A stretch of 64,000 nt of DNA from Halorubrum tebenquichense DSM 14210 (GTDB taxonomy: Archaea; Halobacteriota; Halobacteria; Halobacteriales; Haloferacaceae), in the NCBI RefSeq assembly GCF_000337415.1, contig NZ_AOJD01000077.1, positions 1-64,000 on the forward strand. Direction: 5' to 3'. Numbering within the stretch: position 1 is the stretch's first letter; each line of letters opens with the position of its first letter. The notes under the pieces were generated by a model. That model worked only from the letters and a program-made list of their open reading frames with translations. It was not told the DNA's origin and searched no databases. Shown one piece after another: positions 667 through 28,999 of this stretch. A program made the translations under genes and the position numbers.

Positions 667-1503
667 CTACCCGAATTTGCCGGTGATGTAGTCCTCGACG
701 CGCTGTTCTTCGGGGTCCTCGAAGATCTTCGCCGTGTTGTCGTACTCGACAAGCTCACCGCCGGTGAGGAACACCGCCGTGCGGTCGGAGATCCGCGCCG
801 CCTGCTGCATGTTGTGGGTGACGATGATCACCGTGTACTCTTCGGCGAGGTCGTCGATGAGGTCCTCGATCTTCGAGGCTGCGACGGGGTCTAACGCCGA
901 GGTCGGCTCGTCCATCAGGATGACTTCTGGGTCGGGCGCGATCGCCCGGGCGATACAGAGCCTCTGTTGTTGCCCGCCGGAGAGGTCGAGCCCCGAGGAG
1001 CCGAGCTGGTCTTTTACCTCGTCCCACAGCGCCGCGCGCTTCAGCGACTCCTCGACGCGGGCGTCGATGTCGCCGTCGAACCCCTGTATCTTCAGGCCGT
1101 ACGCGACGTTCTCGCGGATCGACTTCGGGAACGGGTTCGGCTTCTGGAACACGATTCCGATCTTTCGACGCAGGGCGACAGGGTCGACGTCGTCGTCGTA
1201 CACGTTTTTCCCGTCGAACTCGATGTCGCCCTCGACCCGGCAGACATCGATCATGTCGTTCATTCGGTTGATACACCGGAGGAACGTCGACTTGCCGCAG
1301 CCCGACGGACCGATCAGCGCGGTCACGTCGTGTTCGTTTATCTCCATCGAGACGTCGTTGATCGCCTGTTCCTCGCCGTAGTAGACGTCGAGATTTCGCG
1401 CCTCGATGACGGTGTCTCGGGCGTTGAGGGGAGCCTCTCCGCGGCCCTCGTCACCTGTCTCGATTGTCGTCTGAATCTTTGGGGAAGTGTCTGATTCGCT
1501 CAT
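667..1503 (-). CDS. pstB: Phosphate ABC transporter ATPase PstB
   Basis: ATP-hydrolysing subunit of the high-affinity phosphate importer, cytoplasmic face. Visible motifs: Walker A GPSGCGKS (residues 65-72), the PstB-typical Q-loop FQKPNPFP (about 119-126), ABC signature LSGGQ (174-178), Walker B VILMDEP (194-200) and switch His230. At 278 aa it is slightly longer than bacterial PstB because of a 30-residue acidic N-terminal extension common in haloarchaea. It follows pstA with a 3-nt gap and directly abuts phoU, so it is co-transcribed with both. Confidence 0.97.
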
Positions 1504-1506
1504 TGG

Positions 1507-3129
1507 TTAGTTCTCGCGTCCGTATTTGTTCCGGATAACGATCGCCGTCGCGTTCATCAGCAGCATCAGTATCAGTAACACCACAGCCGCCGCGGGAACG
1601 ACCCCGTGCCGGAACTCGGGCTTCGCGTTCGCCGACGCAGCGAAGATCTGGAGTGGGAGTGCCGTCCCGCTGGAGAACAGCCCGCTCGGCGGGCTGTACG
1701 TCGTCGTGGCTATCGCGATGATGACGAGTGGGGCGGTCTCACCGATCGCCCGTGCCAACGCGAGGATCGTCCCGGTGAGGGTGCCGGGGATCGCCTCCGG
1801 CAAGACGACTTCGCGGAGCGTCTGCCACCGACTCGCCCCCATGCCGTACGACCCCTGCCGAAGGTCGTCGGGGACGGACCGCAGTGCCTCCTGCGTCGAG
1901 ACGATGACGATAGGGAGGATGAGCAGTCCGAGGGTCCCGGACGCTGTGACGACGATCCCAGTTCCGAACCCAAGCGTCCGCCGGAAGAGCGCGAGTCCGA
2001 GCAGCCCGTACACGACCGACGGAACACCGGCCAGGTTCGAGATGTTCACCTCCAAGATCGTCGCGAGTCGCCCGCGAAGCCCGGTGTCCGGCGCGTACTC
2101 CTCCAAGTAGATGGCTGCGCCGATCCCGACCGGGAACGCGAGAACTGCCATGAAGCCGACGATGATGATAGATCCGACGATCTGTGGATAGACCCCCGCG
2201 TTACTCGCAGTCAGCCCGTCCCACGACTGTAAGAGGAGGTTCGGCGTGAGGAAGGAGTCCGGACTCCGGATCCCGAATTGGTCAACGACCGCGGCACCGA
2301 GCAGCGTGCCGCCGAGGAGGACGAACGGTCCCGCGACGCCGACACGTCCCTCCGGGTCCGTCCGGACCGACCGCCAGAGGACGTAGCCGGTGGGAACGAT
2401 GAACGCCGAATAAAGGACGACCAGAAGCGACGCGTTGGCCCCGGTAACGATCGACGCCACGGCGACGGCGAGGCCACCGGCAGCGACAATCCCTCCGGCG
2501 AGAGCACCGGAACGGCGACCGCGACGGGATGCGGTCAACGTCCAGACGAGGAGCGCCGCCGGAACGGTGACGAGGCCGAAGTACAGGATCCACTCCGCGG
2601 CGACGCCGATCGGCCCCCGGACAAAGTCGTACAGTAGCGCCGCGACGGCGACACCGACGATGATCGACGCGGGGATGGCCGGCCCGGTGTATGTCCGGTC
2701 CTCCGTCGTCCGGTCGTACGCTAAGACGAGTGCCGGCGGAAGCGATGCGAAGAAGGCGTAGGTGAACACGTCGTAGGGACTGAGCGAGTCGACGACGGCA
2801 TAGGTGACGAGAGCCAGAAGGAGCCCGCCGAACACCGCCGCGAACGCCTTCGCGTTCGTCTCCCGGACTGCCGGTCTCCGACGGGCGTACAGCGTGAACG
2901 CGGCCGTCGGCCCAACGAGTGTACCGAGGTAGACGAGGAACCACGCGGGCGACGCGGTTTCGGGCTGGAACGCGTCACTCGAGATCTGTACGAACAACGC
3001 GAGCACCGCGAGGATGCCGACGAGCGTCGCCGCGACGAGCGCGACCTCGAAGAGCTGTCCCTTCAGCTGCTGGAGCCGGAGTGCCGTGCTTCGTCCGAGT
3101 TGGTCGCTGGTAGTTTCTTCCGTTTCCAT
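1507..3129 (-). CDS. pstA: Phosphate ABC transporter permease PstA
   Basis: Inner permease of the Pst importer. The C-terminal half (about residues 310-540) is the canonical binding-protein-dependent permease domain, with the conserved loop around GMGASRWQTLREVVLPEAIPG. The N-terminal 250 residues add several further hydrophobic segments, making the protein (540 aa) nearly twice the bacterial length of about 290; long PstA proteins are known in haloarchaea. It starts 1 nt after the pstC stop, which indicates tight operon coupling. High GC and intact. Confidence 0.95.
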   Translation of the reverse strand: METEETTSDQLGRSTALRLQQLKGQLFEVALVAATLVGILAVLALFVQISSDAFQPETASPAWFLVYLGTLVGPTAAFTLYARRRPAVRETNAKAFAAVFGGLLLALVTYAVVDSLSPYDVFTYAFFASLPPALVLAYDRTTEDRTYTGPAIPASIIVGVAVAALLYDFVRGPIGVAAEWILYFGLVTVPAALLVWTLTASRRGRRSGALAGGIVAAGGLAVAVASIVTGANASLLVVLYSAFIVPTGYVLWRSVRTDPEGRVGVAGPFVLLGGTLLGAAVVDQFGIRSPDSFLTPNLLLQSWDGLTASNAGVYPQIVGSIIIVGFMAVLAFPVGIGAAIYLEEYAPDTGLRGRLATILEVNISNLAGVPSVVYGLLGLALFRRTLGFGTGIVVTASGTLGLLILPIVIVSTQEALRSVPDDLRQGSYGMGASRWQTLREVVLPEAIPGTLTGTILALARAIGETAPLVIIAIATTTYSPPSGLFSSGTALPLQIFAASANAKPEFRHGVVPAAAVVLLILMLLMNATAIVIRNKYGREN

Positions 3130-3130
3130 G

Positions 3131-4132
3131 TCAGTATTCCTCCCGGAACCGCCGGCGGACCAGTTCTGCGAGGACGTTCATCGTTAGCGTGATCGCGAAC
3201 AGTGTCATGCCGAGCGCGAACATCGCCTCGTAGGTGGGACCGGTGCCGAGGGAGTCCGCACCGGCGATCTGGACCATCGCTGCCGTGATGGTCTGGCTCG
3301 ACTCTGCGAGGTTGCGGAGGACGTTCGGGAAGTACGGCATCTGCGGGCTCATGCCCATCGCCATCGTGACGGCCATCGTCTCGCCGATCGCCCGCGAGAT
3401 CGCGAGCACGTACGACGCGACAATGCCGGAGGTCGCCGACGGAACGACGATCCGCGTCGAGACATCGAACTTCGTCGATCCGAGCCCGTACCCGCCCTGT
3501 CGGAGGCTGTCCGGGACCGCACTCAATGCGTCCTCGCTGATAGAGGAGACCATCGGGATGATCATGATCCCGACGACGACGCTCGCCGACAGCGCGTTGA
3601 ACGTGCCGAGCGACGGCATGACGAACGTGAACTCCGGGAGAACGGGGACGCCCGGCGGAATAATCTGTGCGGAGAACGGGAGAAAGCGGTCGATCATCGG
3701 CGTGACGTACACGAGCGCCATGTAGCCGTAAATGACGGTCGGCACGCCGGCAAGGATCTCCAGAGACGGTTTCAGTATCGACCGCGCCTTGTCGCTCGCG
3801 TACTCGCTGAGATATATCGCCGCCGCCAGGCCGATCGGCAGCGCGATCACCGCCGAAAAGACGGTGACGATGAGCGTCCCGCTTATCAGCGGAAGCACGC
3901 CGTAGTCTTGGGCGATGACAGGACTCCAACTCGTGCCAGTGAAGTACATGATCGGCGATATCTCCGACCAGAACGAGAGGGCACGTCCCGACAGTGCTAG
4001 GATAATTCCGACAGTCACGACGATCGTCAAGACGGCACACGCCGCGATCAGGCGGCCGTAGAGCCGCTCCTTACGGACGACGAATCCGCTTCGTTGGAGC
4101 GACCCGACCCCGCTCTCCGGTTCGTTGCTCAT
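3131..4132 (-). CDS. pstC: Phosphate ABC transporter permease PstC
   Basis: Partner permease of PstA. It has about six hydrophobic segments and the conserved EAA-type loop near GLGSTKFDVSTRIVVPSA (about residue 215-235), which contacts PstB. Length 333 aa is normal. It sits 47 nt after pstS and 1 nt before pstA on the same strand. The short N-terminal tail before the first membrane segment contains RKERL, consistent with an inside-positive orientation. Nothing is missing. Confidence 0.95.
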   Translation of the reverse strand: MSNEPESGVGSLQRSGFVVRKERLYGRLIAACAVLTIVVTVGIILALSGRALSFWSEISPIMYFTGTSWSPVIAQDYGVLPLISGTLIVTVFSAVIALPIGLAAAIYLSEYASDKARSILKPSLEILAGVPTVIYGYMALVYVTPMIDRFLPFSAQIIPPGVPVLPEFTFVMPSLGTFNALSASVVVGIMIIPMVSSISEDALSAVPDSLRQGGYGLGSTKFDVSTRIVVPSATSGIVASYVLAISRAIGETMAVTMAMGMSPQMPYFPNVLRNLAESSQTITAAMVQIAGADSLGTGPTYEAMFALGMTLFAITLTMNVLAELVRRRFREEY

Positions 4133-4179
4133 ATGATTGGTGAAATATAACGTGTGTACACAGCGTTCCCCTTCGGGTT

Positions 4180-5259
4180 CTACGCGCTGTACTCGTAGTC
4201 GCCGGCGATCGCCTCTTCGAGGGCGGCGAGGTTGTCCTCGACCATCTGGTCGTTGGCCGGGACGTAGCCGATATCGTTGGCGATGTAGTCCTCGTCGGAC
4301 TCGTTGATGTAGTACTCGATGAACTCCTGGAGGTGATTCTTCTCCTGGATCTTGCCCATGTGGCCGTAGGTGAACAGCGGGCGAGCGAGCGGGTAGTTCC
4401 CGCTCTTCGCGCCTTCGAGGCTCGGTTCGACCGGGTCACTGCCGCCCTCAATGAGGCTGAGCGCCTTGACGGAGTCCGGGTTGTTCACGTAGTACGCGAA
4501 GGGGAGGTACCCGAACGCATACTCGTTGCCCTGAACGCCCTGCGCGATCAGGTCGTCCTCCTCGGTGCCCTCGAAGTCCTCGCGGATCGGCTGGTCCGCT
4601 TCCGTCTCTCCGATGACCGTCTCGGTGAAGTAATCGTACGTCCCCGACGTGCTCGCCGGTCCGTAGAGGTCGAACGGCTCGTCGGGCCAGTCCGAGTTGA
4701 CGTCGCTCCACATTTCCGGCGCGGTGTCCGGCGACCAGATGGTCTTGAGGTCCTCCAGCGAGATCGAGTCGATGAAGTCGGCCTCGTTGTTGACGACCAC
4801 GGTGAGCGCGTCCTGCGCGAGGAAGAACTCGACCGGTTCGATGCCGTTGTCGCGGCACCGCTGGAGCTCGTCGTCTTGGATCGGTCGACTCGCGTTGTTC
4901 ATGTCGCTGTCACCGGGGATGAAGACGTTCTCGAACCCGCCACCGCTGCCGTCGCGAGTGAGGTTGAAGCCTACGTCCGGGTTCTGCTCGGCGAACTGAC
5001 GAGTGACCTCTTGGGCGACCGGGTAGACGGTACTGCTCCCGGAGATTCGGATATCGCCGGAGAGCGTCTCGGAGCCGCCGTCAGAGCCGTCAGAGCCGTC
5101 AGAGCCGTCGGAGCCGTCAGAGCCGTCAGAGCCGTCGGAGCCGTCGCCGCCGCTGTCAGACGTACAGCCCGCGACCGCTAGCGCCCCCGCACCGGCGAGC
5201 GCCGCGAGCGATTTCCGCCGTGTGATACTGTTCGCGTCCGCGTCATGGCTTGGTGCCAT
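4180..5259 (-). CDS. pstS: Phosphate-binding lipoprotein PstS
   Basis: Extracellular phosphate-binding component. With the ATG at 5259 the protein begins with a Tat signal (SITRRKSLAALAGAG) and a lipobox ending AVAGC, then a flexible linker of repeated Gly-Ser-Asp, then the PBP-like_2 domain with SGSSTVYP (the phosphate-binding N-terminus seen in PstS) and a DGSGGG motif. An in-frame GTG at 5283 would add eight residues before the signal, so I prefer 5259. First gene of pstS-C-A-B-phoU. Lipid-anchored binding proteins are the rule in haloarchaea. Confidence 0.95.
   Translation of the reverse strand: MAPSHDADANSITRRKSLAALAGAGALAVAGCTSDSGGDGSDGSDGSDGSDGSDGSDGSDGGSETLSGDIRISGSSTVYPVAQEVTRQFAEQNPDVGFNLTRDGSGGGFENVFIPGDSDMNNASRPIQDDELQRCRDNGIEPVEFFLAQDALTVVVNNEADFIDSISLEDLKTIWSPDTAPEMWSDVNSDWPDEPFDLYGPASTSGTYDYFTETVIGETEADQPIREDFEGTEEDDLIAQGVQGNEYAFGYLPFAYYVNNPDSVKALSLIEGGSDPVEPSLEGAKSGNYPLARPLFTYGHMGKIQEKNHLQEFIEYYINESDEDYIANDIGYVPANDQMVEDNLAALEEAIAGDYEYSA
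5081..5144. repeat. 9-nt tandem repeat encoding the Gly-Ser-Asp linker of PstS
   Basis: About seven units of TCAGAGCCG or TCGGAGCCG lie in tandem inside pstS and encode repeated GSD tripeptides. Such acidic, flexible linkers separate the lipid anchor from the binding domain in haloarchaeal lipoproteins. The near-identical DNA units make the linker prone to length change by slippage. Confidence 0.8.
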
Positions 5260-5283
5260 TGACTGAATGCGAGCAGAGTACAC

Positions 5284-6369: not shown

Positions 6370-7365
6370 ATGGAAACACGCAAGGTACAAATTACGGGCG
6401 GATCCACATTCACGGTTTCGCTCCCGAAAGAATGGGCAACAGAAATTGATCTTGAGACGGGCGATACGCTTCATCTCTTTCCACGTGATCGAACACTAAT
6501 TATTGAACCAGATAGGGGCGATGAATTCTGGGACACGGAAGTCGATATTGATGATTTTTCGAAAACGCAAGTTCGACGAACGATCCAAGCACTGTATACG
6601 ACCGGATTTAATCGTATCACCCTCTCTGCCTCGACAGATCTGAGCAGTAATCGAAGAGTGATTTCTGTGACAGCTCGAAACCTGATCGGTCTCGAAACAT
6701 TCGAATCAACGGAGACACAAATCACACTTCAGAGTCTCCTCGACTCGACGACTGTCTCCGTTGAACAATCGGCGATTCAACTTCGGCAAATAGCACTCTC
6801 TATGCACGAGGATGCAGTTACTGCACTTCTCGAACAGGACGGTAATCTTGCTGAACACATCGTCGAACAAGATAATCAAGTTGACCGGTTGTATGCCATG
6901 ATTTCTCGACACTTCCAGCGGTCGCTGGTCAGTCTTCAGGAAACCGAGGAGCTTGAGTTAGACCAGTCTGAGCTCTACGACTACCAGACGACAGCCCGAC
7001 AGTTGGAACGGGTGGCCGATCACGCCGAAAAAATAGCGAACCTTGTGACACAGTTCGAGAACCCACCATCGACTAATTTTGCCGAAGAGATTGAGATAAA
7101 AGCTGAAGCGTCCAGGAGGATCGTTGAACAGGCCACGAGTACGATCATCGGAGAGGCTGATATTGAAACTGCTCACAACGCACTTGACCGTCGAGATGAT
7201 CTCACCACAGAACTCCAAAACCTCGAACGAAAACTCCATAATCAAGATATTCCTGAAAGTCACCTGATCGCGCTCATGCTCGACAGTCTGACGCGAACTG
7301 CCGAATACGGCGGGAATATCGCCGAAACAGCACTCCAGACTGCCGCCCGAGAACGCCGCCTCTGA
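6370..7365 (+). CDS. AbrB-PhoU phosphate uptake regulator
   Basis: Residues 1-48 form a SpoVT-AbrB swapped-hairpin DNA-binding domain (METRKVQITGGSTFTVSLPKEW, then GDTLHLFPRD). The rest is PhoU-like helical repeats, with acidic metal-site motifs such as LERVADHAEKIANL near residue 215. Haloarchaeal proteins of this layout are considered transcriptional regulators of phosphate genes, with PhoU sensing and AbrB binding DNA. Length 331 aa is typical. Its place between pst and ppk supports that role. It may partly compensate for the truncated phoU. The stop codon lies in a 12-bp palindrome (7361-7372). Confidence 0.85.
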   Translation: METRKVQITGGSTFTVSLPKEWATEIDLETGDTLHLFPRDRTLIIEPDRGDEFWDTEVDIDDFSKTQVRRTIQALYTTGFNRITLSASTDLSSNRRVISVTARNLIGLETFESTETQITLQSLLDSTTVSVEQSAIQLRQIALSMHEDAVTALLEQDGNLAEHIVEQDNQVDRLYAMISRHFQRSLVSLQETEELELDQSELYDYQTTARQLERVADHAEKIANLVTQFENPPSTNFAEEIEIKAEASRRIVEQATSTIIGEADIETAHNALDRRDDLTTELQNLERKLHNQDIPESHLIALMLDSLTRTAEYGGNIAETALQTAARERRL

Positions 7366-7512: not shown

Positions 7513-8340
7513 GTGACAATCACACTCGAAGAGCAGTCACTTGACGAGACGTTTGACTAGATCTACCAAGTACTTCGTAGGGAGCGAAACCGCACGGAAA
7601 CCGAGTGTGAAGCGTTTGAGGCGTTCGCGAACAGAATCGCTGAATTACAGCCGTCGAACGCGCCGTCAACAGCGAATCCAGTATCCGATGGATTCAACGC
7701 AGTAGGTGGTGCTAGAGCACTCGAATCACGCCCGCTGTCTACACCATCTACTACTGATTATCTCGCTACGATCAGGGACGCCTACGAAGAGACAGTTATG
7801 AGCGTCCCATTCTACGAGACGGAATACGACGACACGTACGAGAAAAGTGTGTATGAAGAATTCGGTCAAGAAGTTGCAATAGTACTAACACAAGGATCCC
7901 AATTCAATCGCACGGTCAAACAAATTCTCCTCGAAAAAGTCGAGAAAGCTCAAGCAGAACGAGAAGCGTTGATCGACACCTGCGACCACGAACACGAATC
8001 GGTCACTCAAGCGGCTTCCGTTCTGGAACCGATTTACAATGAACTCCGATCTTACGATTCCATCCCGTTAGACAAGCAAGAATTCGGCGCGCTAGATGCC
8101 TATCGGACCCGACTACAGACGATGAAGGATAAATGTGAACAAGCGGCCGCCGCACGTCAAGCCACAATCAACCACCACCGGACAGAATATAACCTGTCTG
8201 TTGAGATTCCAGATATCTGTACGTATTTGTACAAAACGTTCGAAACGGACTATCCCGTCTTATTTCTCTGTAGCGAACTCACTCGGAAAATCAAGAATTA
8301 TCGCCACCAAGTAGAACACGCAATGAGTACTTGCCCGTGA
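7513..8340 (+). pseudogene. DUF7260-like haloarchaeal protein with an in-frame amber codon
   Basis: From a GTG at 7513 one reading frame runs to 8340 (275 codons), interrupted by a single TAG at 7558-7560 (codon 16). Residues on both sides fit the haloarchaeal DUF7260-type coiled-coil family I remember: an N-terminal helix with RRERNRTETE, a variable linker, the AYEETVMSVPFYETEYDD block and long acidic helices. Either the gene is dead, or translation restarts downstream; the first ATG is 7798, giving a 180-aa C-terminal protein lacking 95 residues. Function of the family is unknown. Confidence 0.65.
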
Positions 8341-9375: not shown

Positions 9376-11745
9376 ATGAGCGAGCGTGACCTGACGAGTC
9401 CCGAGTACTACCTTAATCGGGAGCTTTCGGAGCTCGCATTTCAGGAGCGCGTCCTCCGCGAGGGGATGGACGATCGAAACCCTCCCCTCGAGCGACTCCG
9501 ATTTCTCGCGTTCTTCACCAAAAACACCGACGAGTTCTTCATGAAACGAGTCGGCGGGCTCAAACAACAGATCGATGCCGGTGTGACCCAGACAACCCCT
9601 GACGGACGAACACCCAAACAACAGTGGCGAGAGGTGTTTGACGCCGCACGCCCTCTCTTTCGTGACCAGTCGGAGCACTGGCAGACGACGCTCAAACCAC
9701 ATCTTGCCGACGTGGGGATCGATATCTGTGATTTTGAGACCCTCTCGAAATCCGATCGCAAGCAATTACGGACGTACTTTGAGGAGTCGATCCTCCCGAC
9801 GTTGACACCGCTCGCGTTCGACCCTGCTCACCCATTCCCGTTCATCTCAAACCTCTCGCTGTCCCTTGCGGTTCTCTCGTCAGACGAAACCGGTGAATCG
9901 ACGTTCACCCGCATCAAGATTCCCTCGAACCAGCCCCGACTGATATCGATCCCCGACGAAAGGACCCAGTACGTCCTCATCGAAGATCTCATCGAGGCGA
10001 ATCTCGATCTGCTGTTGCCGGATCTCGACGTCAGCGATGTCTCGAAGTTTAAGGTAACCCGCAATGCGGAAGTGCGACGTGACGAGGAGGTCGCCGAAGA
10101 CCTCATCGACATGGTCGAGGAAGTGCTCGAACAGCGTCGCTTCGCGACGGTTGTCCGGCTCGAAGTCGACGCCAACATGCCGGACGAATCCGTCTCGATA
10201 CTCAAAGAGCAGCTCGATCTGGCTGATCGGGAGGTATTCTACCGACAAGGACCGATCGATTACACAGATTTCTTCGAACTCACAGACCTCGACCGTCCCG
10301 ATCTCAAACCGTCGCCGTGGATTCCACGCCCCCATCCACGGTTGGCATCACTGACGACCGACTCTCAGGACGGGGCGTCAAACATCTTCGGCGAGATCCA
10401 GAAGGACGATATCCTCGTACATCACCCGTATCACTCGTTTGAGGGGACGGTCCAGCAGTTCCTCGATGCGGCAGCAAATGACCCCGACGTACTCGCGGTG
10501 AAAGCGGCGATCTATCGGACCGCAAGTGACTCAAAGGTGATCCAGAGTCTCATCGATGCCGCGGACAACGGCAAACAGGTGGCAGTGATGGTTGAGCTTA
10601 AGGCCCGCTTCGACGAGAAGAACAACCTTGAGTGGGTCCGCCGCCTTGAGGAGGAGGGAATCCACGTCGCCTACGGGACTGTCGGGCTGAAAACACACAC
10701 TAAGACTGCACTCGTAGTGCGTCGGGAAGACGATGGCGTCCAGCTATACTCTCACGTGGGCACGGGTAATTACCACTCGGGAACGGCGAAGGGATACTCA
10801 GATCTAGGCTTGTTGACCGCCGATCGAGACATCGGTCTCGATCTCACTAAGGTATTTAACTTCTTTACATGACCGACGCTTGACGACCGCTTCCAGAAGC
10901 TCCTCATCGCCCCGGTGACGATGCGCGAGCGGTTCACGGAGATGGTCAGACGCGAGGCCGAACACGCTCGATCCGGGGAACGGGCTCGGATCGTCGTGAA
11001 AGTAAACGGCCTCGAAGACCCCTCGATGGTCGAGGAACTCTACCGGGCCTCGATAGCCGGGGTCGAGATCGACTTGATCGTCAGGGATATCTGCCGGCTT
11101 CGACCCGGTCTCGAAGAGATAAGCGAGAACATCACCGTCCACTCCATCGTCGGTCGCTTCCTCGAACACGCGCGGATCTTCTACTTCGAGAACGGCGGCG
11201 ATCCCGAGTGGTACATCGGCTCGGCCGACTGGATGACACGCAACCTCGATTACCGTGTTGAGGCGGTCACGCCTGTCGAAAACAGACAACTACGCATCCA
11301 GTTACGGTTCATCTTGGAGGCCTCGCTGACCGATAACCGTCGCCGCTGGGTGATGCAACCCGACGGAGAATACGAGCAGGTCACCCCCGATAACGAGCCG
11401 ATTCGGGACATCCAAGAGATACTGATGTCGGCGACGGAAACCGCCGTCGAACGCGGGTACGGGACGGGGATGGAGGTCGATACGGACCTGATCGAGGAAT
11501 CCCTTCTCGTTGAGGACCGCGTAGCGAAGGAACCGGACACTACGTCTGAGGAGTTCGATGTCGACGAAGGCGACGAGGCTCACCCGGACGGCGGAGACGC
11601 GTCAGTGTTCGAGACACATGCCGAACACTGGTATCACCCTGACAGCGAGACATACGACTGGGCGGTTCGCACGACTGACGGCGACCGCCGGTACTTTAAG
11701 ACGCGCGACGGCGCAGAAGAACGTCTTCGCTCCGAGTATTCCTGA
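9376..11745 (+). pseudogene. ppk1: Polyphosphate kinase PPK1 interrupted by an in-frame TGA
   Basis: PPK1 polymerises the gamma-phosphate of ATP into polyphosphate. From ATG 9376 (a GTG at 9277 is in frame but adds residues unlike the family) one frame of 789 codons reaches 11745, broken only by TGA at 10870-10872 (codon 499). Upstream: the N-domain NRELSELAFQERVL, the head domain, and the catalytic GLKTHTKTALVVRRE His motif. Across the stop, KVFNFFT[TGA]PTLDDRFQKLLIAPVTMRERF matches the family, where a Gly follows FxxLT. A single GGA-to-TGA change explains it. The second PLD-like half (SIVGRFLEHARIF, NGGDPEWYIGSADWMTRNLDYRVE) and a haloarchaeal C-terminal extension are intact. The truncated product would lack half the active site. 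Confidence 0.9.
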
Positions 11746-11775: not shown

Positions 11776-12462
11776 TCAGACCGGCGTGACGATCTTCGAA
11801 TCGGCTCGCTCTTGGTGAGTCGTCGTCGGATCTGTGGCAACAAAATCGTCGTGACAGTAGCGGTACGCGGTGAGCGCCCCGCCGTAGACACACCCGGTAT
11901 CGAGGCCAACGGCGTACTGGCGGTCGACCGGTGAGTCGTGAACGGTATGGCCGAAAAACATTCGATACGGGCCATCGTAGTTGTCGTACCAGAACGGGCC
12001 GTCGTACCCGTCTCCGTGTGGGGACCGCATCGTCAATAGCTCCTCGAGGGTGTGGTCTTCGAGCGGCCGTTCGGGGTCGACACCGCCATGGACCACGAGC
12101 GCGTCGTCGAACGAGATGGCAACGGGAAGCGACTCGAAGTACGGCTTGTCGCCATCGCGGAGCCACTCCGGATCTTTGTCTCCGCGGACGATCTTCTGTT
12201 CGTTGTTTCCGCGGACGCTGACGAACCGTGAATCGCGACGGACGATGTCGACGACACCGGGGCTGTCCGGTCCCTTCCGTACTAGGTCACCAACGAACAC
12301 CACGAGGTCGTCGTCAGTCACTCCGAGATCCGCGAGGAGTTCTTCTAATGCTGCCCGACTCCCGTGGACGTCGCCGATGATATAGACCTCATCATATTCG
12401 TTGATGTCGATCCGTCGGTGGTATTTTTCGATGTCGTCGCTGAACTGGGGTATCTCGTTCAT
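11776..12462 (-). CDS. PPP-type metallophosphatase (ApaH/PrpE-like)
   Basis: Calcineurin-like phosphoesterase, 228 aa from ATG 12462; an upstream in-frame start at 12573 would add 37 residues outside the fold. Motifs in order: GDVHG (30-34), GDLVRKGPDS (58-67), GNNE (85-88), VVHGGVDP (about 122) and FFGHTVH (about 170). It departs from the consensus GDxVDRG and GNHE: the second Asp is Arg and the catalytic His of GNHE is Asn. Candidate substrates are phosphoproteins, dinucleoside polyphosphates or polyphosphate. It converges on ppk1 and is divergent from the histidine kinase, fitting a phosphate-metabolism role. Confidence 0.8.
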   Translation of the reverse strand: MNEIPQFSDDIEKYHRRIDINEYDEVYIIGDVHGSRAALEELLADLGVTDDDLVVFVGDLVRKGPDSPGVVDIVRRDSRFVSVRGNNEQKIVRGDKDPEWLRDGDKPYFESLPVAISFDDALVVHGGVDPERPLEDHTLEELLTMRSPHGDGYDGPFWYDNYDGPYRMFFGHTVHDSPVDRQYAVGLDTGCVYGGALTAYRYCHDDFVATDPTTTHQERADSKIVTPV

Positions 12463-14097: not shown

Positions 14098-15207
14098 GTG
14101 TTCAACACCCACCCTCATACGGATCCGGCGTGTGAGTCAGCCATCTCGGCACAGACTAACAAACCCACCAGAGCTCTGCGAAGAGACCTAGGTGTGGTAG
14201 CTGACGAGCTACCTCACTTCGCCGAGCGGGTTATAAACGAGAGGCTCCTCACAGCCATTGATTCTCGGCGGCGGGCCGTGTTACTGGGGGCTGCGACCGT
14301 AGCTGCGGGAGTTGTTGGGGTTACATCTGTCTCACTCCCTCGAACCGATGGTGGAACCGCTACTCCGATCGACCAGGGCTCTCCCGACCCCACAACAGAT
14401 CCGACGCTGATCGCTCATCGAGGGTTTGCGGGTGAGAACCCGGAAAATACGCGTCTAGCTGCACGGGCAGCGACGCGAGAGAACGGGCCTGGTCGACGGG
14501 CTGATCTCGTTGAGATTGATGTCGTCCCGACCGCCGACGGTGATGTGGTGGTGTTTCACGACGACGACCTTGCAGGCCGCGACGGTGAGGGAATGGGGCT
14601 TACCGAGACGTCCGGTGTCGTTTGGAAGACGGATACAGAAACGGTCACAAGCGCAGAGGTGCTCCAAAGTGGGGAGACAGTGCCGCGGCTTGAAGAACTA
14701 CTCTCGTCGATCCCATCGGCTGTCGGCGTGAATATCGAGTTGAAGAATCCTGGGAGTACCTCGCTCCAGTTTGGCGAGAAGCTGTCCGACGAGGCGCTCG
14801 ACACGCAGAAAGCGGTCTGGCGTCCCTTCGTTGATCGCGTCGTCGATATCGTAGATGCCCACGACCACGAGATTCTCTTTTCATCGTTCCATGAAGCAGC
14901 GCTTGCCGTCGTAGCTGAACAATTAACGGCGTCTGTCGCACCGATTCTCTGGGAATCAGTCGACGACGGGATCGCAATTGCCGAGGCGTACGACGCCGAT
15001 GCGATTCACCCACCCGTAGCGATGATCCGTAACACTCCGTTCTTCGACCATGGACGCTTCGGTGAGACGGATCTGGTGCGAACGGCGCAGAGCCACAGCT
15101 GGGATGTCAACGTTTGGACTGTCGACTCGTGGTATCAGGCTGATCGCCTCCTTGACGCGGGGGTCGACGGGCTCATCGCCGACTACTCCACCCTTCTTTC
15201 GAAGTGA
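14098..15207 (+). CDS. Secreted glycerophosphodiester phosphodiesterase
   Basis: Hydrolyses glycerophosphodiesters to sn-glycerol 3-phosphate and an alcohol. The GDPD TIM barrel starts near residue 100 with LIAHRGFAGENPENT, then the EIDVVPTADGDVVVFHDDDL metal and catalytic block, IELKNP, and the C-terminal WDVNVWTVDSW...GVDGLIADY. A twin-arginine segment SRRRAVLLGAATVAAGVVG (about residues 59-77) precedes it, so the enzyme is probably exported by Tat or anchored. The first 58 residues are poorly conserved-looking; the GTG at 14098 is uncertain and GTG 14194 is an alternative. It directly precedes the Ugp importer, which would take up its product. Confidence 0.9.
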   Translation: MFNTHPHTDPACESAISAQTNKPTRALRRDLGVVADELPHFAERVINERLLTAIDSRRRAVLLGAATVAAGVVGVTSVSLPRTDGGTATPIDQGSPDPTTDPTLIAHRGFAGENPENTRLAARAATRENGPGRRADLVEIDVVPTADGDVVVFHDDDLAGRDGEGMGLTETSGVVWKTDTETVTSAEVLQSGETVPRLEELLSSIPSAVGVNIELKNPGSTSLQFGEKLSDEALDTQKAVWRPFVDRVVDIVDAHDHEILFSSFHEAALAVVAEQLTASVAPILWESVDDGIAIAEAYDADAIHPPVAMIRNTPFFDHGRFGETDLVRTAQSHSWDVNVWTVDSWYQADRLLDAGVDGLIADYSTLLSK

Positions 15208-15348
15208 GTGATCGGCCGATGATAGTCTCGGCTGCTCGTGGTTACCATTGAGTCGCACGGAGAAATATATAGCCCCATTGTTTAATCTTTGTTGACATAT
15301 ACTACTATTAGCAGCAGTTATTACCGAAGTTTGGATGTTCAGACATGT

Positions 15349-16707
15349 ATGGCGCCACATGCCGAGAAGTCGACCGGGATCTCACGTCGCAACACACTCA
15401 CGACAACTGGTGCCGCGCTCGCGGCGGCGACCGGCCTTGCGGGATGTCTAGGCGGGAGCAGCGGCGACGGCGGCGCGCAGTTCTCACCGATCAACGAGGA
15501 ACTCACCGTGTGGCACGCGATGGGTGGGACGAACGGCGAGACCCTCAATCAGATTGGGACTGACTTCGAAGAGGAGTTCGGGACCGGCGTGAACATGGAG
15601 TTTCAGGACTCCTACGAGAACGTCCTCACGAACACGCTCTCGGCGTTTGACTCCGGGAACGTCTCGGACATGCTGCAGGTCGATTCGCTGTTCGCGCAGC
15701 AAGTCCTCGACACCGATCAGGTACGGCCGGTCGAGGAGATTCTCCCTGACGATTTCGACGCCGATATCTTTCTCGACAACGTCGCGGAGTTCTTCACCGT
15801 CGACGGCGACCTCGCCTCGCTCCCGTTCAACAACTCGAACGCGATCATGTACATCAACCGGGATGCCTTCGAGGAGGCCGGGCTCGATCCCGATGATCCG
15901 CCGCAGACGCTGGCGGAAGTCCGCAGTGCATCGGAACAGCTCGTCGACCAAGGCGTGACGCAGTACGGGATCACGTGGCCGAACCACGTCTGGTTCGTCG
16001 AGACGTGGTACGGATTCGAGGGAGAACTGCTGACGGACGCAGAGAACGGCCACGCCGGGGAGCCGTCAGAACTTCGGACCCCTGATGCGGCCTACGACCT
16101 CTACGACTGGTGGAAGGGCATGGCCGACGACGACCTCTACACGAACCCGGGGATCGAGGCGTGGGGCGAAGCGACCTCGCTGTTCATCGAGCAGGAGGCG
16201 GCGATGGTACTCACGAGCACCGCCTCGGTCGCAGGCCTCATCGCAGACTCCGAGGACTTCACTGTCGATGCTGCGCCGTATCCGAGTATCAGCGAGACTC
16301 GTGTCGGCCCAGTGATCGGCGGTGCCTCCTTCTACGTCCCCGACGGGCTCCCCGAGGAGCGATATGAAGAAATCGGACAGTTGCTCGAATACATGGCCCA
16401 GCCGGAGGTCCAAACGGAATGGCACAAGGGGTCTGGGTACTACCCGATCACGCAGCCGTCGGTCGACGCGCTCCGTGAGGAGGGCTGGTTCGAAGAGAAC
16501 CCGATGTACCAGGTTGCGCTCGACCAGCTCCAAAACGGCGACGCGAGCGACCCGGCGACCAAGCGAGCCCTGCTCGGTCCGGCGCGGAACGTCCAAACGG
16601 TCATCCAAAACAAGTCGGTGGACATCCTGAACGCCGACAGCATCGACGCCGAGATTGAGGCGCTCAAGACCGAGGTCGACGATGTGCTGACCGAGTACTA
16701 CAACTGA
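15349..16707 (+). CDS. ugpB: UgpB-type ABC transporter binding lipoprotein
   Basis: Family 1 extracellular solute-binding protein, 452 aa from ATG 15349. The N-terminus is a Tat lipoprotein signal (SRRNTLTTTGAALAAATGLAGC). The body has the SBP_bac_1/8 pattern: ELTVWHAMGG, FEEEFGTGVNMEF, the ligand-pocket region NNSNAIMYINRDAFEEAGLDP, and a C-terminal GSGYYPITQPSVDAL. GGSGYYP-like motifs are typical of UgpB. Context (phosphodiesterase upstream, two permeases and an ATPase downstream) supports glycerol 3-phosphate or glycerophosphodiester binding, though a sugar cannot be excluded. A start at 15289 would put 20 residues before the signal. Confidence 0.88.
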   Translation: MAPHAEKSTGISRRNTLTTTGAALAAATGLAGCLGGSSGDGGAQFSPINEELTVWHAMGGTNGETLNQIGTDFEEEFGTGVNMEFQDSYENVLTNTLSAFDSGNVSDMLQVDSLFAQQVLDTDQVRPVEEILPDDFDADIFLDNVAEFFTVDGDLASLPFNNSNAIMYINRDAFEEAGLDPDDPPQTLAEVRSASEQLVDQGVTQYGITWPNHVWFVETWYGFEGELLTDAENGHAGEPSELRTPDAAYDLYDWWKGMADDDLYTNPGIEAWGEATSLFIEQEAAMVLTSTASVAGLIADSEDFTVDAAPYPSISETRVGPVIGGASFYVPDGLPEERYEEIGQLLEYMAQPEVQTEWHKGSGYYPITQPSVDALREEGWFEENPMYQVALDQLQNGDASDPATKRALLGPARNVQTVIQNKSVDILNADSIDAEIEALKTEVDDVLTEYYN

Positions 16708-16725
16708 CCGCGGAGTCACACACGC

Positions 16726-17610
16726 ATGTCCACACGCGAGATTTTTGACAGCCGGATCGAGTCCGGGTTGCTGCTGTTGCCGACGCTGCTCGTCTCGATC
16801 GTCTTCCTGTACTATCCGACGGCGCTCGCCGTGCGAACCAGCTTCTTCGACTCGAGTTTCGGGCAGGCAGACGAGTTTGTCGGCTTAGAAAACTACGTCA
16901 CGCTACTGACCGACTCGGGATATCATTCGAGTCTACTTCTCTCAGTGTTGTTTGCTGCCGTCGTGGTGATCGGCGTCATCGCTGTTTCGCTGTACCTCAC
17001 CTTCCTCATCCACGAGGTCGACACCGGCCAGGGGCTGTACCTGATCTCCGTGATCTGGCCGTACGCCCTTCCGCCTGCGGTGGGTGCGCTCGTCTTCCTG
17101 TTCATCGCACATCCGACGCTGGGCGTGTTGACCGGTCCGATTGAGGCGCTCGGCGTCGACGTCGACTGGTTCAACAACGGTCCGCAAGCGTTCGTCGTCG
17201 TCGCACTCGCGGCGATATGGAAACAGATCGGCTACAACGTGATCTTCATGATCGCGGCGATGAACAACATCCCGGACACGCTCACAGAGACGGCGGAACT
17301 CGACGGTGTGAGTGGGATCCGACGGCTCATGTCCGTGTACGTGCCGATCATGACGCCGACGCTGTTTTTCCTCGTCATCATCAACACCATCTACGCGTTC
17401 TTCGGGACGTTCGCGTTCGTGGATCTACTCACGAGCGGTGGGCCGTCGAACGCGACGAACATCCTGATTTTCGACCTGTATCGGGAAGGGTTCTCCTTCT
17501 TCAATTTCGGCGTCGCTTCGACGAAGTCTGTCGTGTTGTTCCTCGTCGTTGGCGTGCTGATGTTCGTACAGTTCCGTGTGACTGACAAATACTCCTACTA
17601 CGGTGGCTAA
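16726..17610 (+). CDS. ugpA: UgpA-type ABC transporter permease
   Basis: 294 aa with six hydrophobic segments. The MalF/UgpA-type EAA loop is ETAELDGVSGIRRLMSVYVPIMTPTLF (about residues 188-214). It begins 18 nt after ugpB and its end overlaps the in-frame GTG of ugpE by 8 nt, so the genes are translationally coupled. Role: one of the two membrane channels of the importer. Confidence 0.93.
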   Translation: MSTREIFDSRIESGLLLLPTLLVSIVFLYYPTALAVRTSFFDSSFGQADEFVGLENYVTLLTDSGYHSSLLLSVLFAAVVVIGVIAVSLYLTFLIHEVDTGQGLYLISVIWPYALPPAVGALVFLFIAHPTLGVLTGPIEALGVDVDWFNNGPQAFVVVALAAIWKQIGYNVIFMIAAMNNIPDTLTETAELDGVSGIRRLMSVYVPIMTPTLFFLVIINTIYAFFGTFAFVDLLTSGGPSNATNILIFDLYREGFSFFNFGVASTKSVVLFLVVGVLMFVQFRVTDKYSYYGG

Positions 17611-18496
17611 GATGGTCCAACTACTCCAATACGCCAAGCGACAGGCCAACGCGCTCCGAGGAAACCAAGTAACAGAAACCACCCACGACGCGCGTCCCGG
17701 GACGCATCTCCAACTGTGGTTCCTCGTGTTGCTCGTGGTGTTCCCAATCGTTGTCGCAGTGATCGTCAGTACCAAAGAGACAGGTGTAGTGACCAGTCTC
17801 GGCGATCTGCTGCCCGGGAGCTACGCGGTCGAGAACTACCGCGAAGCTCTCGTCGATTACCGGTTCGGCCGCTTCATGTGGAACTCACTGGCGATGTCGC
17901 TCGTGATCGTCGTCGGCAAGCTCATCGTCTCAGTGTTCGCGGCGATGGCGATCGTCTACTATCGGGTTCCATACAAGGACCTCGTGTTCTTGTTCATCCT
18001 ATTTACGCTGTTGTTGCCCGTCCCCGTTCGGTTCATCCCGCTGTTCCAACTCATGAACGACCTCGGGTGGAGCAACACGATTCTCGCCATTACCGTTCCG
18101 TACATCGCCAGCGCAACGACAGTGTTTATTCTCCGTCAGCATTTCCTGTCGATTCCGACATCGATCGTCGAAACGGCGAAAATCGACGGCGTCGGGCCGC
18201 TCCGATTCATGCTGTTCGTGTTGTTGCCAATGTCGAAAGGCGTCCTCGTCGGCGTCTCTATCATCATGTTCGTCTACGCGTGGAACCAGTACCTCTGGCC
18301 GCTGATAATCATCGACTCCGAGGCCAATCAGGTCGCCCAAGTCGGGCTCCAACTGCTACAGGGCGACGTTCAGGGCGGACAGCTCTCGTGGTCGCTCGTG
18401 ATGGCCGGTTCGACGTTGACTCTGCTACCGCCGCTACTGTTGATGATCGTGTTCCGTAAACCACTGTTAGAGACGTTCAGCATCCAACAAAAGTAA
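17603..18496 (+). CDS. ugpE: UgpE-type ABC transporter permease
   Basis: About 295 aa with six hydrophobic segments and the MalG-type loop VETAKIDGVGPLRFMLFVLLPMS (about residue 190). The longest frame starts at GTG 17603, overlapping ugpA by 8 nt; ATG 17612, right after the ugpA stop, is equally possible. It pairs with UgpA to form the translocation pore. A 2-nt gap precedes ugpC. Confidence 0.93.
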   Translation: MAKMVQLLQYAKRQANALRGNQVTETTHDARPGTHLQLWFLVLLVVFPIVVAVIVSTKETGVVTSLGDLLPGSYAVENYREALVDYRFGRFMWNSLAMSLVIVVGKLIVSVFAAMAIVYYRVPYKDLVFLFILFTLLLPVPVRFIPLFQLMNDLGWSNTILAITVPYIASATTVFILRQHFLSIPTSIVETAKIDGVGPLRFMLFVLLPMSKGVLVGVSIIMFVYAWNQYLWPLIIIDSEANQVAQVGLQLLQGDVQGGQLSWSLVMAGSTLTLLPPLLLMIVFRKPLLETFSIQQK

Positions 18497-18498
18497 CA

Positions 18499-19668
18499 AT
18501 GACAACCGTAACACTACAGAACCTACAGAAGGCGTTCGGCGATGTCGTCGCCGTCAATGGTATCGACCTCGAAATCGAAGACGGAGAGTTTCTCGTCATC
18601 GTCGGCCCGAGCGGATGCGGCAAAAGCACGACGCTGCGGCTGCTTGCCGGTCTTGAGGCGACGACTGACGGTCGGATCGAGATGGGTGGACGGGATGTCA
18701 CCGGCGTTGAACCCAAAGATCGGAACGTGGCAATGGTGTTTCAAAACTATGCGTTGTACCCACACATGACTGGGCGGCGCAACATCACCTTCGGAATGAA
18801 ATCGAGCGGCGATTTCAGCGACGCGGAGATCGAGAGTCGGGTCGAAGACGCGGCCGACACTCTCGACATCGAAGACCTCCTCGATCGGAAACCGGAGGCA
18901 ATGTCCGGCGGTGAACGGCAGCGGGTGGCGCTCGGTCGCGCCATCGTCCGCGATCCGGACGTCTTCCTGATGGATGAGCCGCTGAGCAATCTCGACGCGA
19001 AGCTCCGGATCCAAATGCGTGCTGAGCTGGCTCAGCTTCACTCCGCGCTTGAGACGACGACAGTCTATGTCACGCATGACCAGACCGAAGCGATGACGCT
19101 CGGAGAGCGGGTTGTCGTCATGAACGACGGACAGATCATGCAGGTTGACGAGCCGCAGGTGCTGTACGACTTTCCGGCGAACCGGTTCGTTGCGGAGTTC
19201 ATCGGCGACCCGGCGATGAACATGATCCCCGTCGATATCGAGGACGGCCACGCCGTCCACGACGCGTTTACCCTTCCGCTTCCGTCCGTGGACGATTCTC
19301 CCTCGGCTGAGCGGAATGGTACAGGGGACACGCGAATCGGAGATACACGGCACGCGATTCTCGGTATTCGCCCGGAAGATTTCCATCTCTCGGATACACA
19401 GGCAGTTGACGGGCAACCGACAATCGATGCCGAGGTAAATGTGCGGGAGCCGCTCGGAGACAGTCTGCTCTTACACTGTTCGATCGGATCCACACCGTGT
19501 AACATACAGGCGGAGCCGCGAACAGACGTCCGTGCCGGTGAGACGGTGTCTGTGACGTACGACCCTGCGCGGCTTCATCTGTTCGACACTGAGACCGGGG
19601 ACGCGTTCTATCATTCAGAGTCACATATCTCATCTGATGACCAAGTAGTCTCCCAGGTTTCGAAATAG
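18499..19668 (+). CDS. ugpC: UgpC-type ABC transporter ATPase
   Basis: 389 aa of the MalK/UgpC class. Walker [10 protein letters not shown] (36-44), Q-loop FQNYALYPHMT, signature MSGGERQRVALGRAI (about 134-148), Walker B VFLMDEPLSNLDAKLR and switch His in YVTHDQTEAM; the C-terminal 130 residues form the OB/TOBE regulatory domain (GIRPEDFHLSD). It closes the ugpBAEC operon. The ATPases of this class can be regulated through the C-terminal domain. Confidence 0.95.
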   Translation: MTTVTLQNLQKAFGDVVAVNGIDLEIEDGEFLVIVGPSGCGKSTTLRLLAGLEATTDGRIEMGGRDVTGVEPKDRNVAMVFQNYALYPHMTGRRNITFGMKSSGDFSDAEIESRVEDAADTLDIEDLLDRKPEAMSGGERQRVALGRAIVRDPDVFLMDEPLSNLDAKLRIQMRAELAQLHSALETTTVYVTHDQTEAMTLGERVVVMNDGQIMQVDEPQVLYDFPANRFVAEFIGDPAMNMIPVDIEDGHAVHDAFTLPLPSVDDSPSAERNGTGDTRIGDTRHAILGIRPEDFHLSDTQAVDGQPTIDAEVNVREPLGDSLLLHCSIGSTPCNIQAEPRTDVRAGETVSVTYDPARLHLFDTETGDAFYHSESHISSDDQVVSQVSK

Positions 19669-21226: not shown

Positions 21227-22810
21227 GTACGTGTTTACCCCGAGGCCTCGACGGCCGGCACAGCGTGAGCGCGTGAAATCATCTCATTGCTGCTGACGAC
21301 TCGACGAAGCTCTTCGTAGGGATTGCGTCCCTGCTGGCGCCATGTCGCCAGCAGGGACAAGACCGTCTCGTGAACGAACATTCCTCGATCATTACGGAGC
21401 GTTCCGATGTTTTTCCGGAGAACAACAGGTTCACGAAGTGCGTTCTCAGCCGCGTTATTCGTCGGGGAGACCGCTGGCTCACCGACAAAGGTGAGCCAGT
21501 GGTCGAGCCCACCTTCGATCTTCCCGAGCAGTGTTGCCACTGGTTCGGCGGTCACTGACCGATCAACGAGCGATTTGAGTCCATCCTGGCATGAGCGATG
21601 CATCTGCGCTCGTTCACGAGGGCTTGGGTCGGTCTCCAGCCAGGACTGGAGACCGACGAACATCTGCTTGAGATACCTACAAATCAGTTCTGCTTCCTCG
21701 TAGTCACTCGCAACGTCTTCGGCTTCCCGGAGAAGATGTGCCCAGCACCGCTGAAGCTTCTCGCTAAAGGCTGGATATGCCGTCCACCCATCACAGATGA
21801 CCGTTCCCGCGAAGTCCTCGCCGAGGACTTCCGCGGGAACATCACTCCCACGACTCTCTCTGACCGCGTATAGCGTGTGTTTGCCCGTCCGAAACGTCCA
21901 GATCCACGCTTGCTCACCGTCGCGTTTGATGCCTGTTTCGTCGATGTGAACCACGTCAGCAGCTTGAATCGCTTGCCGGAGTTGCTCGTACTCGCAGCGA
22001 CCGGCGCGCGCAGCGCGCTCGGTCGCGTGCCACGCGGACGCGCCCGAGAGTTCCAGTCCATGGAGTTGCTCGAATCGATCAGCGATCTTCCGGTAGGGAA
22101 GGCGGTGATCGTACCGAGACAGTGCTGCTTGGGCGATGACGTTCACCCCGAACTGCCCCTCATCGGGGCAGTTGGGGTGTGTCGCAACTGTCTCTGTTCC
22201 ACAGGAATGGCAGTGGTAGCAGTGGCGGTTGTACTGGGTGATTTCTGGGGGCTGGGGATCAGGGATCTCCTCGACGAGTCGGGGGCTGACGCCCACCGAC
22301 TCGTCGAAGTGGTCGCCACACTCGGGACAACAGTCACAGGTGACCTCGATTTCTTTGTCGGGATCGGCTGTCGAACGCCACTCCGGGTCGTGACCGTCCT
22401 TCCGACCGGGAGTGCCACCGTCAGTTCGGACATCGTCGTCTTCGTCGTCTTGCTCGGTCGGGGACTCGTCGGTCCCCGACCGTCGCTTGCTGGGTGGAGT
22501 GTGTGGATTCTCGTATTTGCGAAGACGTGTTTCGAGTTCTTCGATTCGTTCGTTCTTCTCTTTGAGTTTTTCCTCCAGCTCGTCGACCTGCTCTTCCATT
22601 TGTAGAAACCGTGAGAGAAGCTCGTCTTTGCTGAGGTCTTGCCTATCCACTATGACCACCTCAGCGTTACCTCAGCAGGGTCACCGGGATGGTCTCCGCG
22701 CGGAGACCATCCCTGAAGTGGATCAACTAGCCCTTGCTGAGGGCACATATCTCTCTGCTTGGCTGCCTGCTACGAGAGAGTGCCGAAATCCACTCGGGCT
22801 AAACACGTAC
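21227..22810. mobile_element. Complete IS66-family insertion sequence with 8-bp target duplication
   Basis: Terminal inverted repeats of 18 bp: GTACGTGTTTACCCCGAG at 21227-21244 and, inverted, GTACGTGTTTAGCCCGAG at 22793-22810 (one mismatch). The element is flanked by the identical 8-mer ATATAACT at 21219-21226 and 22811-22818, the duplication length known for IS66. One transposase gene fills it (1,584 bp), which makes it an IS66-like element without tnpA/tnpB, as in haloarchaeal ISH10-type elements. The intact duplication indicates a recent insertion into AT-rich intergenic DNA. Confidence 0.9.
21235..22659 (-). CDS. IS66-family transposase
   Basis: 474 aa. Domains in order: N-terminal coiled coil (leucine-zipper-like, about residues 10-48), a zf-IS66 zinc-binding region (CDCCPECGDHFD and CYHCHSCGTE), and the DDE catalytic core with Asp in VHIDETGIKRDG, Asp in VICDGWTAYP and Glu in SPTNNAAENALREPVV, plus an IS66 C-terminal segment. 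No frameshift or stop, so probably active. The frame nearly fills the element. Confidence 0.93.
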   Translation of the reverse strand: MVIVDRQDLSKDELLSRFLQMEEQVDELEEKLKEKNERIEELETRLRKYENPHTPPSKRRSGTDESPTEQDDEDDDVRTDGGTPGRKDGHDPEWRSTADPDKEIEVTCDCCPECGDHFDESVGVSPRLVEEIPDPQPPEITQYNRHCYHCHSCGTETVATHPNCPDEGQFGVNVIAQAALSRYDHRLPYRKIADRFEQLHGLELSGASAWHATERAARAGRCEYEQLRQAIQAADVVHIDETGIKRDGEQAWIWTFRTGKHTLYAVRESRGSDVPAEVLGEDFAGTVICDGWTAYPAFSEKLQRCWAHLLREAEDVASDYEEAELICRYLKQMFVGLQSWLETDPSPRERAQMHRSCQDGLKSLVDRSVTAEPVATLLGKIEGGLDHWLTFVGEPAVSPTNNAAENALREPVVLRKNIGTLRNDRGMFVHETVLSLLATWRQQGRNPYEELRRVVSSNEMISRAHAVPAVEASG

Positions 22811-27373: not shown

Positions 27374-28999
27374 TTAGTCGTGCGGGATCAACGCCGAGGC
27401 AACGAGCTCAACACACTCGCCCGCAGTAATTACAGGTGCGTAGTGCATCTCGCCGTCGATGTCCGCTTTCAGCAGGAAGTCGGTGAGCCGCCAGATATTG
27501 TACAACAGGACCGCGAACACGAAATAGAACAAGCGAACGCGGTAGTCTTTCGAGGAAGTCTTCGCGAGAAAATCACCTTTGATCGATTTGTACTCACTCT
27601 CGATCTGCCACCGACGGCTGTAGCGCTGACAGAATGTCTCAGCTTCCTCGGGAGCGACTCGGAGATTCGTCGCGAAGACGGCCGTCCCCTCACCGCTTGT
27701 CGACGGCACGTACAGCAGCCGCATTGGATGCGATCCAGATTCTACATGGACAGAAGCCGACTCAACGGCCACCTCTTGGTCGTCTTCCTCCATCTGTTCG
27801 AGTACATCCTGTTCGGAGCTGGAGACCCGCTTGGGTATGAGGTAGTTCACATCGAGGTTTGAGAGTGTCTGGAACACTTGTATCGAGTCGAACTCCCGAT
27901 CACACAGCACTGTCTCGATTGGAACATGCTCTTTCGCTCGTCGAACGAGCTGTCGCACAGTACGATGGATCTGATTCGACGGGTTCTCATCCCACTCAGA
28001 GCTCTCTCGAACCGGTTCCACGGCGAGAACGAGTGGGATATTCTGTCCGATGATCGAGAGCGTTGCGAATTTGAAGGCTCGACTGTCTCTGTCTTTGGTC
28101 CCGCTGACCATCGGCATCTCCTCGGTATCCCCGTAGTAGGGAATGGCGGTGATATCGATCGCGGCAGTGACTGGCCGGCGGAACGATGCTTCTGAGGCGA
28201 TCACGGAGAGCAAGCGGTCCGTTGTCTCATTGAAGCTGTTTATGAGCTCGTCAGGTTCGAACTGCTTGACGGTGCGGAGGTGGGTGTCGCCATGCGGTCC
28301 GTACTCTTCGCCACGACGATATTGGAAGCGAGTCGCCCCCTGTGCGGTTCCGCACCGAACCATCCCCATGAACGTCTGTAGCTCGAAAAATTGTGTGTCC
28401 TCGTACGAGGCGTTCGACGCCCGACCAGAGTCGAAGTGTCCGTAGGCGTGATCACGCGCGAGGCGTGTCGTCTGGATAATCTCGTCCTGTGAGAAGGATT
28501 CGTCTTCTACTGGGTCTGTATCTTCTTGCGTGTCGTCGACGATCTCTGCCTTTGGCCGCACCTCCGGCGCTGAGATGTCGCGATCGTGGACTTCTTTGAC
28601 AACGAAGTGGGCAGCAGCGCGGGCGTATTCGTGGGCTGTGTCGTCGAATCGGTTTTTCCACGCTCGCGAGAACGCTGATTCGTCGGGCACTCGACTGAAG
28701 CCGAGGATAGTCGCTGCTTCCGGTTGTCGGGTGAGTCGTCGAGTGAAGTCGGCGTACGAACCCCCAGTGACCTCCATGAACACGAATGAGAGGATTATCG
28801 CGCGAAAGGAGAGTGGCGCAGGATGCCACGCTGGATACCCATCTTCGATCGTGTCTATCGAGTGATCGAGGTTTTCGAACGCGGTGACGAGATTGACTTT
28901 TTTGAGTTCGTTTCGGATAGTGATCCCCAGCTGGTACGCTTCACACAGGTAACGCATTCGAGGATTCTCATTAGGAGATGAATCGTCAGAGGTACTCAT
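27374..28999 (-). CDS. IS4-like DDE transposase (541 aa)
   Basis: N-terminal helical region (about 1-120), then DDE core: first Asp in AAIDITAIPYYGD (about residue 280), second in VLCDREFDSIQ (about 365) and the IS4-type Y-x2-R-x3-E-x6-K signature as YSRRWQIESEYKSIK near residue 465. An acidic insertion (DTQEDTDPVEDESF) follows residue 155. The frame is open and likely functional. Its product is about 90 percent identical by eye to the copy at 47951. Confidence 0.88.
   Translation of the reverse strand: MSTSDDSSPNENPRMRYLCEAYQLGITIRNELKKVNLVTAFENLDHSIDTIEDGYPAWHPAPLSFRAIILSFVFMEVTGGSYADFTRRLTRQPEAATILGFSRVPDESAFSRAWKNRFDDTAHEYARAAAHFVVKEVHDRDISAPEVRPKAEIVDDTQEDTDPVEDESFSQDEIIQTTRLARDHAYGHFDSGRASNASYEDTQFFELQTFMGMVRCGTAQGATRFQYRRGEEYGPHGDTHLRTVKQFEPDELINSFNETTDRLLSVIASEASFRRPVTAAIDITAIPYYGDTEEMPMVSGTKDRDSRAFKFATLSIIGQNIPLVLAVEPVRESSEWDENPSNQIHRTVRQLVRRAKEHVPIETVLCDREFDSIQVFQTLSNLDVNYLIPKRVSSSEQDVLEQMEEDDQEVAVESASVHVESGSHPMRLLYVPSTSGEGTAVFATNLRVAPEEAETFCQRYSRRWQIESEYKSIKGDFLAKTSSKDYRVRLFYFVFAVLLYNIWRLTDFLLKADIDGEMHYAPVITAGECVELVASALIPHD

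Follow-up and report, generated by a model that had tools for sequence, protein, structure and literature searches.

Probable recent loss of the only known polyphosphate kinase in Halorubrum tebenquichense through an in-frame TGA in ppk1

The polyphosphate kinase gene ppk1 of Halorubrum tebenquichense DSM 14210 was probably inactivated recently by a real nonsense mutation, which would have removed the strain's only known polyphosphate-synthesising enzyme. The gene lies in bases 1-64,000 of contig C77 (the stretch of DNA analysed here, hereafter the window), which belongs to a 3.33-Mb draft genome of 93 contigs that is 99.7% complete. In the proposed mechanism, a G-to-T change would have turned GGA, the codon of an invariant Gly at the junction of the C1 and C2 domains, into TGA. 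Translation would then halt after 498 residues, and the product would retain the N, middle and C1 domains with the phospho-accepting His441. Lacking the C2 half, it would be unable to make polyphosphate, and with no PPK1 or PPK2 to substitute for it, polyphosphate synthesis by the known routes would be lost. The cell is thus predicted from its gene content to make no polyphosphate. Such an event would be an ordinary, very young gene loss that adds to the picture of repeated loss of polyphosphate synthesis in Halorubrum, and it would provide a natural PPK1-negative strain.

The interrupted ppk1 gene

The ppk1 reading frame starts with the ATG at 9376 and ends at a TGA that forms codon 499. The same frame resumes at 10873 without a frameshift and continues up to a stop codon at 11743-11745. 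The features of the gene are as follows.

9376..10872, + strand: 5' part of ppk1, 498 codons plus TGA, encoding the N, middle and C1 domains
10696..10698, + strand: His441 codon, aligned with the phospho-histidine His435 of E. coli PPK1; retained in the truncated product
10870..10872, + strand: in-frame TGA, codon 499, at the C1/C2 domain junction; Gly in all relatives
10873..11745, + strand: rest of ppk1 in the same frame (290 codons and a stop), encoding the C2 domain and a haloarchaeal C-terminal tail; orphaned or no longer translated
11083..11085, + strand: Arg570 codon (counterpart of R564 in E. coli); missing from the truncated product
11167..11169, + strand: His598 codon (counterpart of H592 in E. 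coli); missing from the truncated product

Profile matches placed PP_kinase_N, the PP_kinase middle domain and PP_kinase_C_1 (to residue 498) upstream of the TGA, and PP_kinase_C (profile positions 1-167 of 172) downstream of it in the same frame. All four domains are therefore present in order only when the TGA is read through, and no single uninterrupted frame carries both catalytic halves. With the TGA read as a residue, the protein is 789 amino acids long and scores 1013 bits on the NCBIfam PPK1 subfamily model PRK05443, versus 705 and 286 for the separate pieces. Of the 7092 possible single substitutions in ppk1, 260 create a stop. We found no second stop and no frameshift along the whole gene, so that the damage amounts to one discrete lesion. 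A first-pass annotation, made from the sequence letters, had described PPK1 as intact on either side of a single in-frame TGA, and the domains on both sides, the shared frame and the lack of any other lesion bear this out.

To place the catalytic residues, the protein was aligned to the E. coli PPK1 structure 1xdo. The two proteins (1xdo/1xdp for E. coli) are homologous over residues 10-654, with His435, R564 and H592 corresponding to H441, R570 and H598 of the window protein. Of these three counterparts the translated part includes H441 alone, whereas those of R564 and H592, residues with roles in the other half of the active site, lie in C2. A chain ending at the C1/C2 junction would thus have half an active site and is expected to be inactive; with these two counterparts missing, the truncated product presumably cannot make polyphosphate. 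The phospho-histidine is essential in the PPK1 of M. tuberculosis (PMC3215733).

Origin and age of the stop

The read-through protein was aligned to 39 named ppk1 loci, drawn from a set covering 84,980 species, and to relatives with whole genomes. In all 37 named loci that span the site the residue is Gly, encoded by GGA, GGG, GGC or GGT and usually found in the context VFNFFTGPTLDDRF, and the same holds for the further whole genomes. None of these relatives has a stop there, which makes the TGA private to this genome. Most Halorubrum copies carry GGA at the site, one G-to-T step from TGA, and the first-pass proposal that the stop replaces a GGA glycine codon therefore fits the comparison well. 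Other haloarchaeal PPK1s (Halorubrum, Natrialba and Halobellus; NF003921 / TIGR03705) have the same domains in the same full order, and the Halorubrum homologues share ~80% full-length identity with the window protein and commonly the convergent phosphoesterase neighbour. The window gene differs from them in having a TGA at the invariant Gly499, where the others are uninterrupted. No match to the ppk1 site turned up in viral contigs.

The sequence beyond the stop has seen little or no decay. When the window gene was compared with ten relatives, mean pN/pS was 0.15 upstream of the stop and 0.17 in the downstream C2; among the ten relatives themselves the values were 0.13 and 0.125, respectively. 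Pairs including the window gene and other pairs had the same after/before ratio of dN (0.093/0.106 and 0.068/0.077, respectively). On a fixed tree, the terminal branch of the window gene took up 0.063 of the tree length before the stop and 0.059 after it at codon positions 1+2, and 0.054 and 0.061, respectively, at codon position 3. A neutral gene of the composition of ppk1 is expected to gain ~87 stops per substitution per site, and from the lack of a second stop it follows that a pseudogene would be younger than ~0.035 neutral substitutions per site. The undiminished constraint means that the stop is very young, or that it is not real, or that the gene is still used, since the absence of relaxation is equally expected from a sequencing error or a fully expressed gene.

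The main rival reading is a base-calling error, in which the TGA arose in the consensus of the draft assembly and the organism itself carries GGA and a functional PPK1. A single substitution with no surrounding decay and full constraint past it is what such an error would leave behind, and an assembly in 93 contigs is compatible with it. However, comparison with Pfam or NCBIfam families showed no break in ~30 other window genes, which is mild evidence against poor sequence, and the site is distant from a contig end (ppk1 lies 9-12 kb inside the 163-kb contig). In addition, real PPK1 lesions occur at a few percent in relatives, and a real mutation is therefore not rare a priori. Altogether we regard an assembly error as unlikely, and infer from this one draft assembly that the TGA is present in the organism.

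A further alternative, also raised in the first-pass annotation, is that the TGA is decoded by programmed or leaky readthrough or by a suppressor tRNA, so that some full-length PPK1 is made. The full constraint downstream would be explained in this way, and the base after the TGA is C, a context in which stops are leaky in other organisms. This alternative is nevertheless very improbable, given that TGA is the commonest terminator (166 of the 244 gene-like frames examined), that no relative has a stop at the site, whereas a recoded gene should show a conserved one, and that the 47 tRNA genes recovered include none with a UCA anticodon. tRNA-Trp, whose gene has a long intron in haloarchaea, is not among these 47; for two intron-bearing tRNAs, Gln-TTG and Glu-TTC, the anticodon was read by eye. 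Selenocysteine decoding was rejected, as matches to the tRNA-Sec model stayed below the cut-off and overlapped ordinary tRNAs. Demonstrated stop readthrough in Archaea was limited to selenocysteine and pyrrolysine in a 2021 review (PMC8211752). A codon-usage scan for in-frame stops over 317 kb of the genome returned mostly gene boundaries or shadow frames, and missed ppk1 at the thresholds used.

The TGA coincides closely with the C1/C2 junction, C1 extending to residue 498-500 and C2 beginning at 509, and an in-frame GTG (10915) and ATG (10921) lie 43-50 bases 3' of it. This raises the possibility of a two-piece enzyme, composed of the 498-residue N-terminal chain and a C2 half restarted at one of these codons. 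Both are, however, ordinary conserved PPK1 codons, and no well-spaced ribosome-binding site is visible. The sole ATG that overlaps the stop, at 10869, belongs to another frame, which ends after four codons, and no relative is split at this site. Only 3 of the 225 one-step stops in residues 1-690 would fall in the linker, which is unlikely by chance, yet this is a single event. We consider a two-piece enzyme extremely improbable.

Recent inactivation by a real nonsense mutation is thus the reading that we prefer. It agrees with the first-pass view that the strain makes no full-length PPK1 and lost it very recently: the second half is cut off, constraint is kept, there are no further lesions, and neither a PPK1 nor a PPK2 is available as a substitute. 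The partner phosphoesterase, which is still intact, counts against it.

Polyphosphate kinases in this genome and in other haloarchaea

As the first-pass annotation had suggested, the genome was searched for another ppk. At 99.7% completeness it gave one PPK1 match in all, with one TGA inside, and no second PPK1. No PPK2 was found either, by a search that does detect it in control genomes, Haloferax volcanii among them. These known routes to polyphosphate would consequently be lost. The search for a backup kinase covered the PPK1 and PPK2 families; a distinct crenarchaeal PPK family was reportedly described in a 2026 paper. Ppx-GppA was also absent from the genome. Haloarchaea normally lack Ppx (PMC13318637).

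PPK1 is present in 15 of 34 congeneric genomes and absent from the other 19, and it is found in 103 of 243 genomes of the order. PPK1 is therefore dispensable, and its loss is ordinary in the genus. H. lipolyticum and H. sodomense are examples with an intact ppk1. Another case of PPK1 loss in Halorubrum is that of Halorubrum rubrum YC87, in which two contig ends each carry a part of ppk1 and the break lies at residues 136-140 (L061 6401-6540 and L063 1-135). At the break are inverted ends, GCTYTGTTGAATCC, and the 8-bp sequence GAGGAGTC is repeated at the junction; the gene was apparently broken by an insertion element. In contrast to the window, the break lies near residue 140 and the partner phosphoesterase is cut down to a 73-aa fragment. 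Elsewhere, ppk1 has a frameshift at about residue 385 (G170), is truncated after residue 234 with only residues 3-234 left (G062), or is present as a C2 fragment only (G159).

Stops inside the PPK1 of two further genomes (G134 and G192) turned out to be outside the core once realigned. Halorubrum distributum JCM 10118 (L032/L003) has a separate TGA at ppk1 codon ~752, a Trp position. As a core lesion this TGA was ruled out, since it lies in the variable C-terminal tail past the catalytic core; the tail is poorly conserved (pN/pS ~0.48 vs 0.13 in the core) and tolerates truncations. In Halorubrum sp. Boch-26 (L055 1-26), ppk1 starts at a contig end at residue 157, and its N-terminal part was not found elsewhere. 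This may be another disrupted copy.

The neighbouring phosphoesterase and its setting

Around ppk1, the window holds the following genes.

82-666: PhoU-domain gene, after the phosphate ABC transporter genes
667..5283, - strand: phosphate ABC transporter genes (substrate-binding protein, two permeases, ATPase), a phosphate-related setting
6370..7365, + strand: PhoU-like protein with an AbrB-like N-terminus
7798-8340, + strand: DUF7260 protein, between the PhoU-like gene and ppk1
11776..12462, - strand: ApaH-like metallophosphoesterase, intact, 228 aa from the ATG at 12462, convergent with ppk1

The phosphoesterase gene adjoins ppk1 in most of the named loci. In a set of 59 genomes (this one and relatives), all 20 with PPK1 also matched the phosphoesterase strongly (in H. 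rubrum as a fragment), versus none of those without PPK1. Among the 243 haloarchaeal genomes, 102 have both genes, one has the phosphoesterase only (G205), one has a PPK1 fragment only (the G159 genome mentioned above) and 139 have neither, so that both occur together in 102 of the 104 genomes that have either. The Fisher value for this co-occurrence, 3e-67, overstates the evidence because the genomes are related; the match between the two genes nonetheless persists within genera that are variable for both. In 96 of the 102 genomes the genes lie less than 2 kb apart, and in 83 of these 96 they share a strand, the phosphoesterase lying upstream. A literature search for this pairing found no report among the papers covered.

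The motifs GDVHG, VGDLvRKGP, GNNE, HGG and GHT are kept in 49 aligned homologues of the phosphoesterase, and the best solved match is the trypanosome ApaH-like protein 2qjc. Like the ApaH-like phosphatases (ALPHs), which include the yeast endopolyphosphatase Ppn2, the protein has the PPP-superfamily motifs GDxHG, GDxxxKG, HGG and GHT. Unlike them, it has GNNE instead of GNHE, as seen in 49 of 49 homologues. Its GDxxDRG-type motif reads GDLVRKG, and Arg occupies a position at which ALPHs have a neutral residue (criteria from PMC8220851). Yeast Ppn2, a member of the wider ApaH-like group, is an endopolyphosphatase that is active with Zn2+ and Co2+ (PMC8220851). In Haloferax volcanii, a Mn2+/Co2+-dependent and probably cytosolic polyphosphatase, seen as a ~45 kDa zymogram band, was reported in 2026 (PMC13318637).

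Judging from its gene partnership and its family, the neighbour is a candidate haloarchaeal polyphosphatase. We tentatively propose, as an idea with somewhat less than even chances, that haloarchaeal PPK1 and the GNNE-type phosphoesterase form a two-gene module in which the phosphoesterase is the missing polyphosphatase that degrades the product of PPK1. If this is true, the present genome would be a natural example of the module losing its synthesis half first. The phosphoesterase offers a concrete candidate for the polyphosphate-degrading enzyme reported in haloarchaea, and in this respect it is a more useful lead than the TGA itself.

On the other side of the gene pair, a glycerophosphodiesterase gene followed by an ugp-like sugar-phosphate ABC transporter occupies 14098-19668 on the + strand. 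Several Halorubrum relatives also have ugp-like genes close to ppk1, on the opposite strand. Between ~6000 and ~50000 the G+C content of the window is ~0.50-0.60, compared with ~0.70 in most chromosome samples, and this low-G+C stretch holds an IS66-type transposase gene (21235-22659) and two DDE transposase genes (27374-28999 and 47951-49531). By its composition and content, the stretch resembles an island containing ppk1 and the glycerol-3-phosphate uptake genes.
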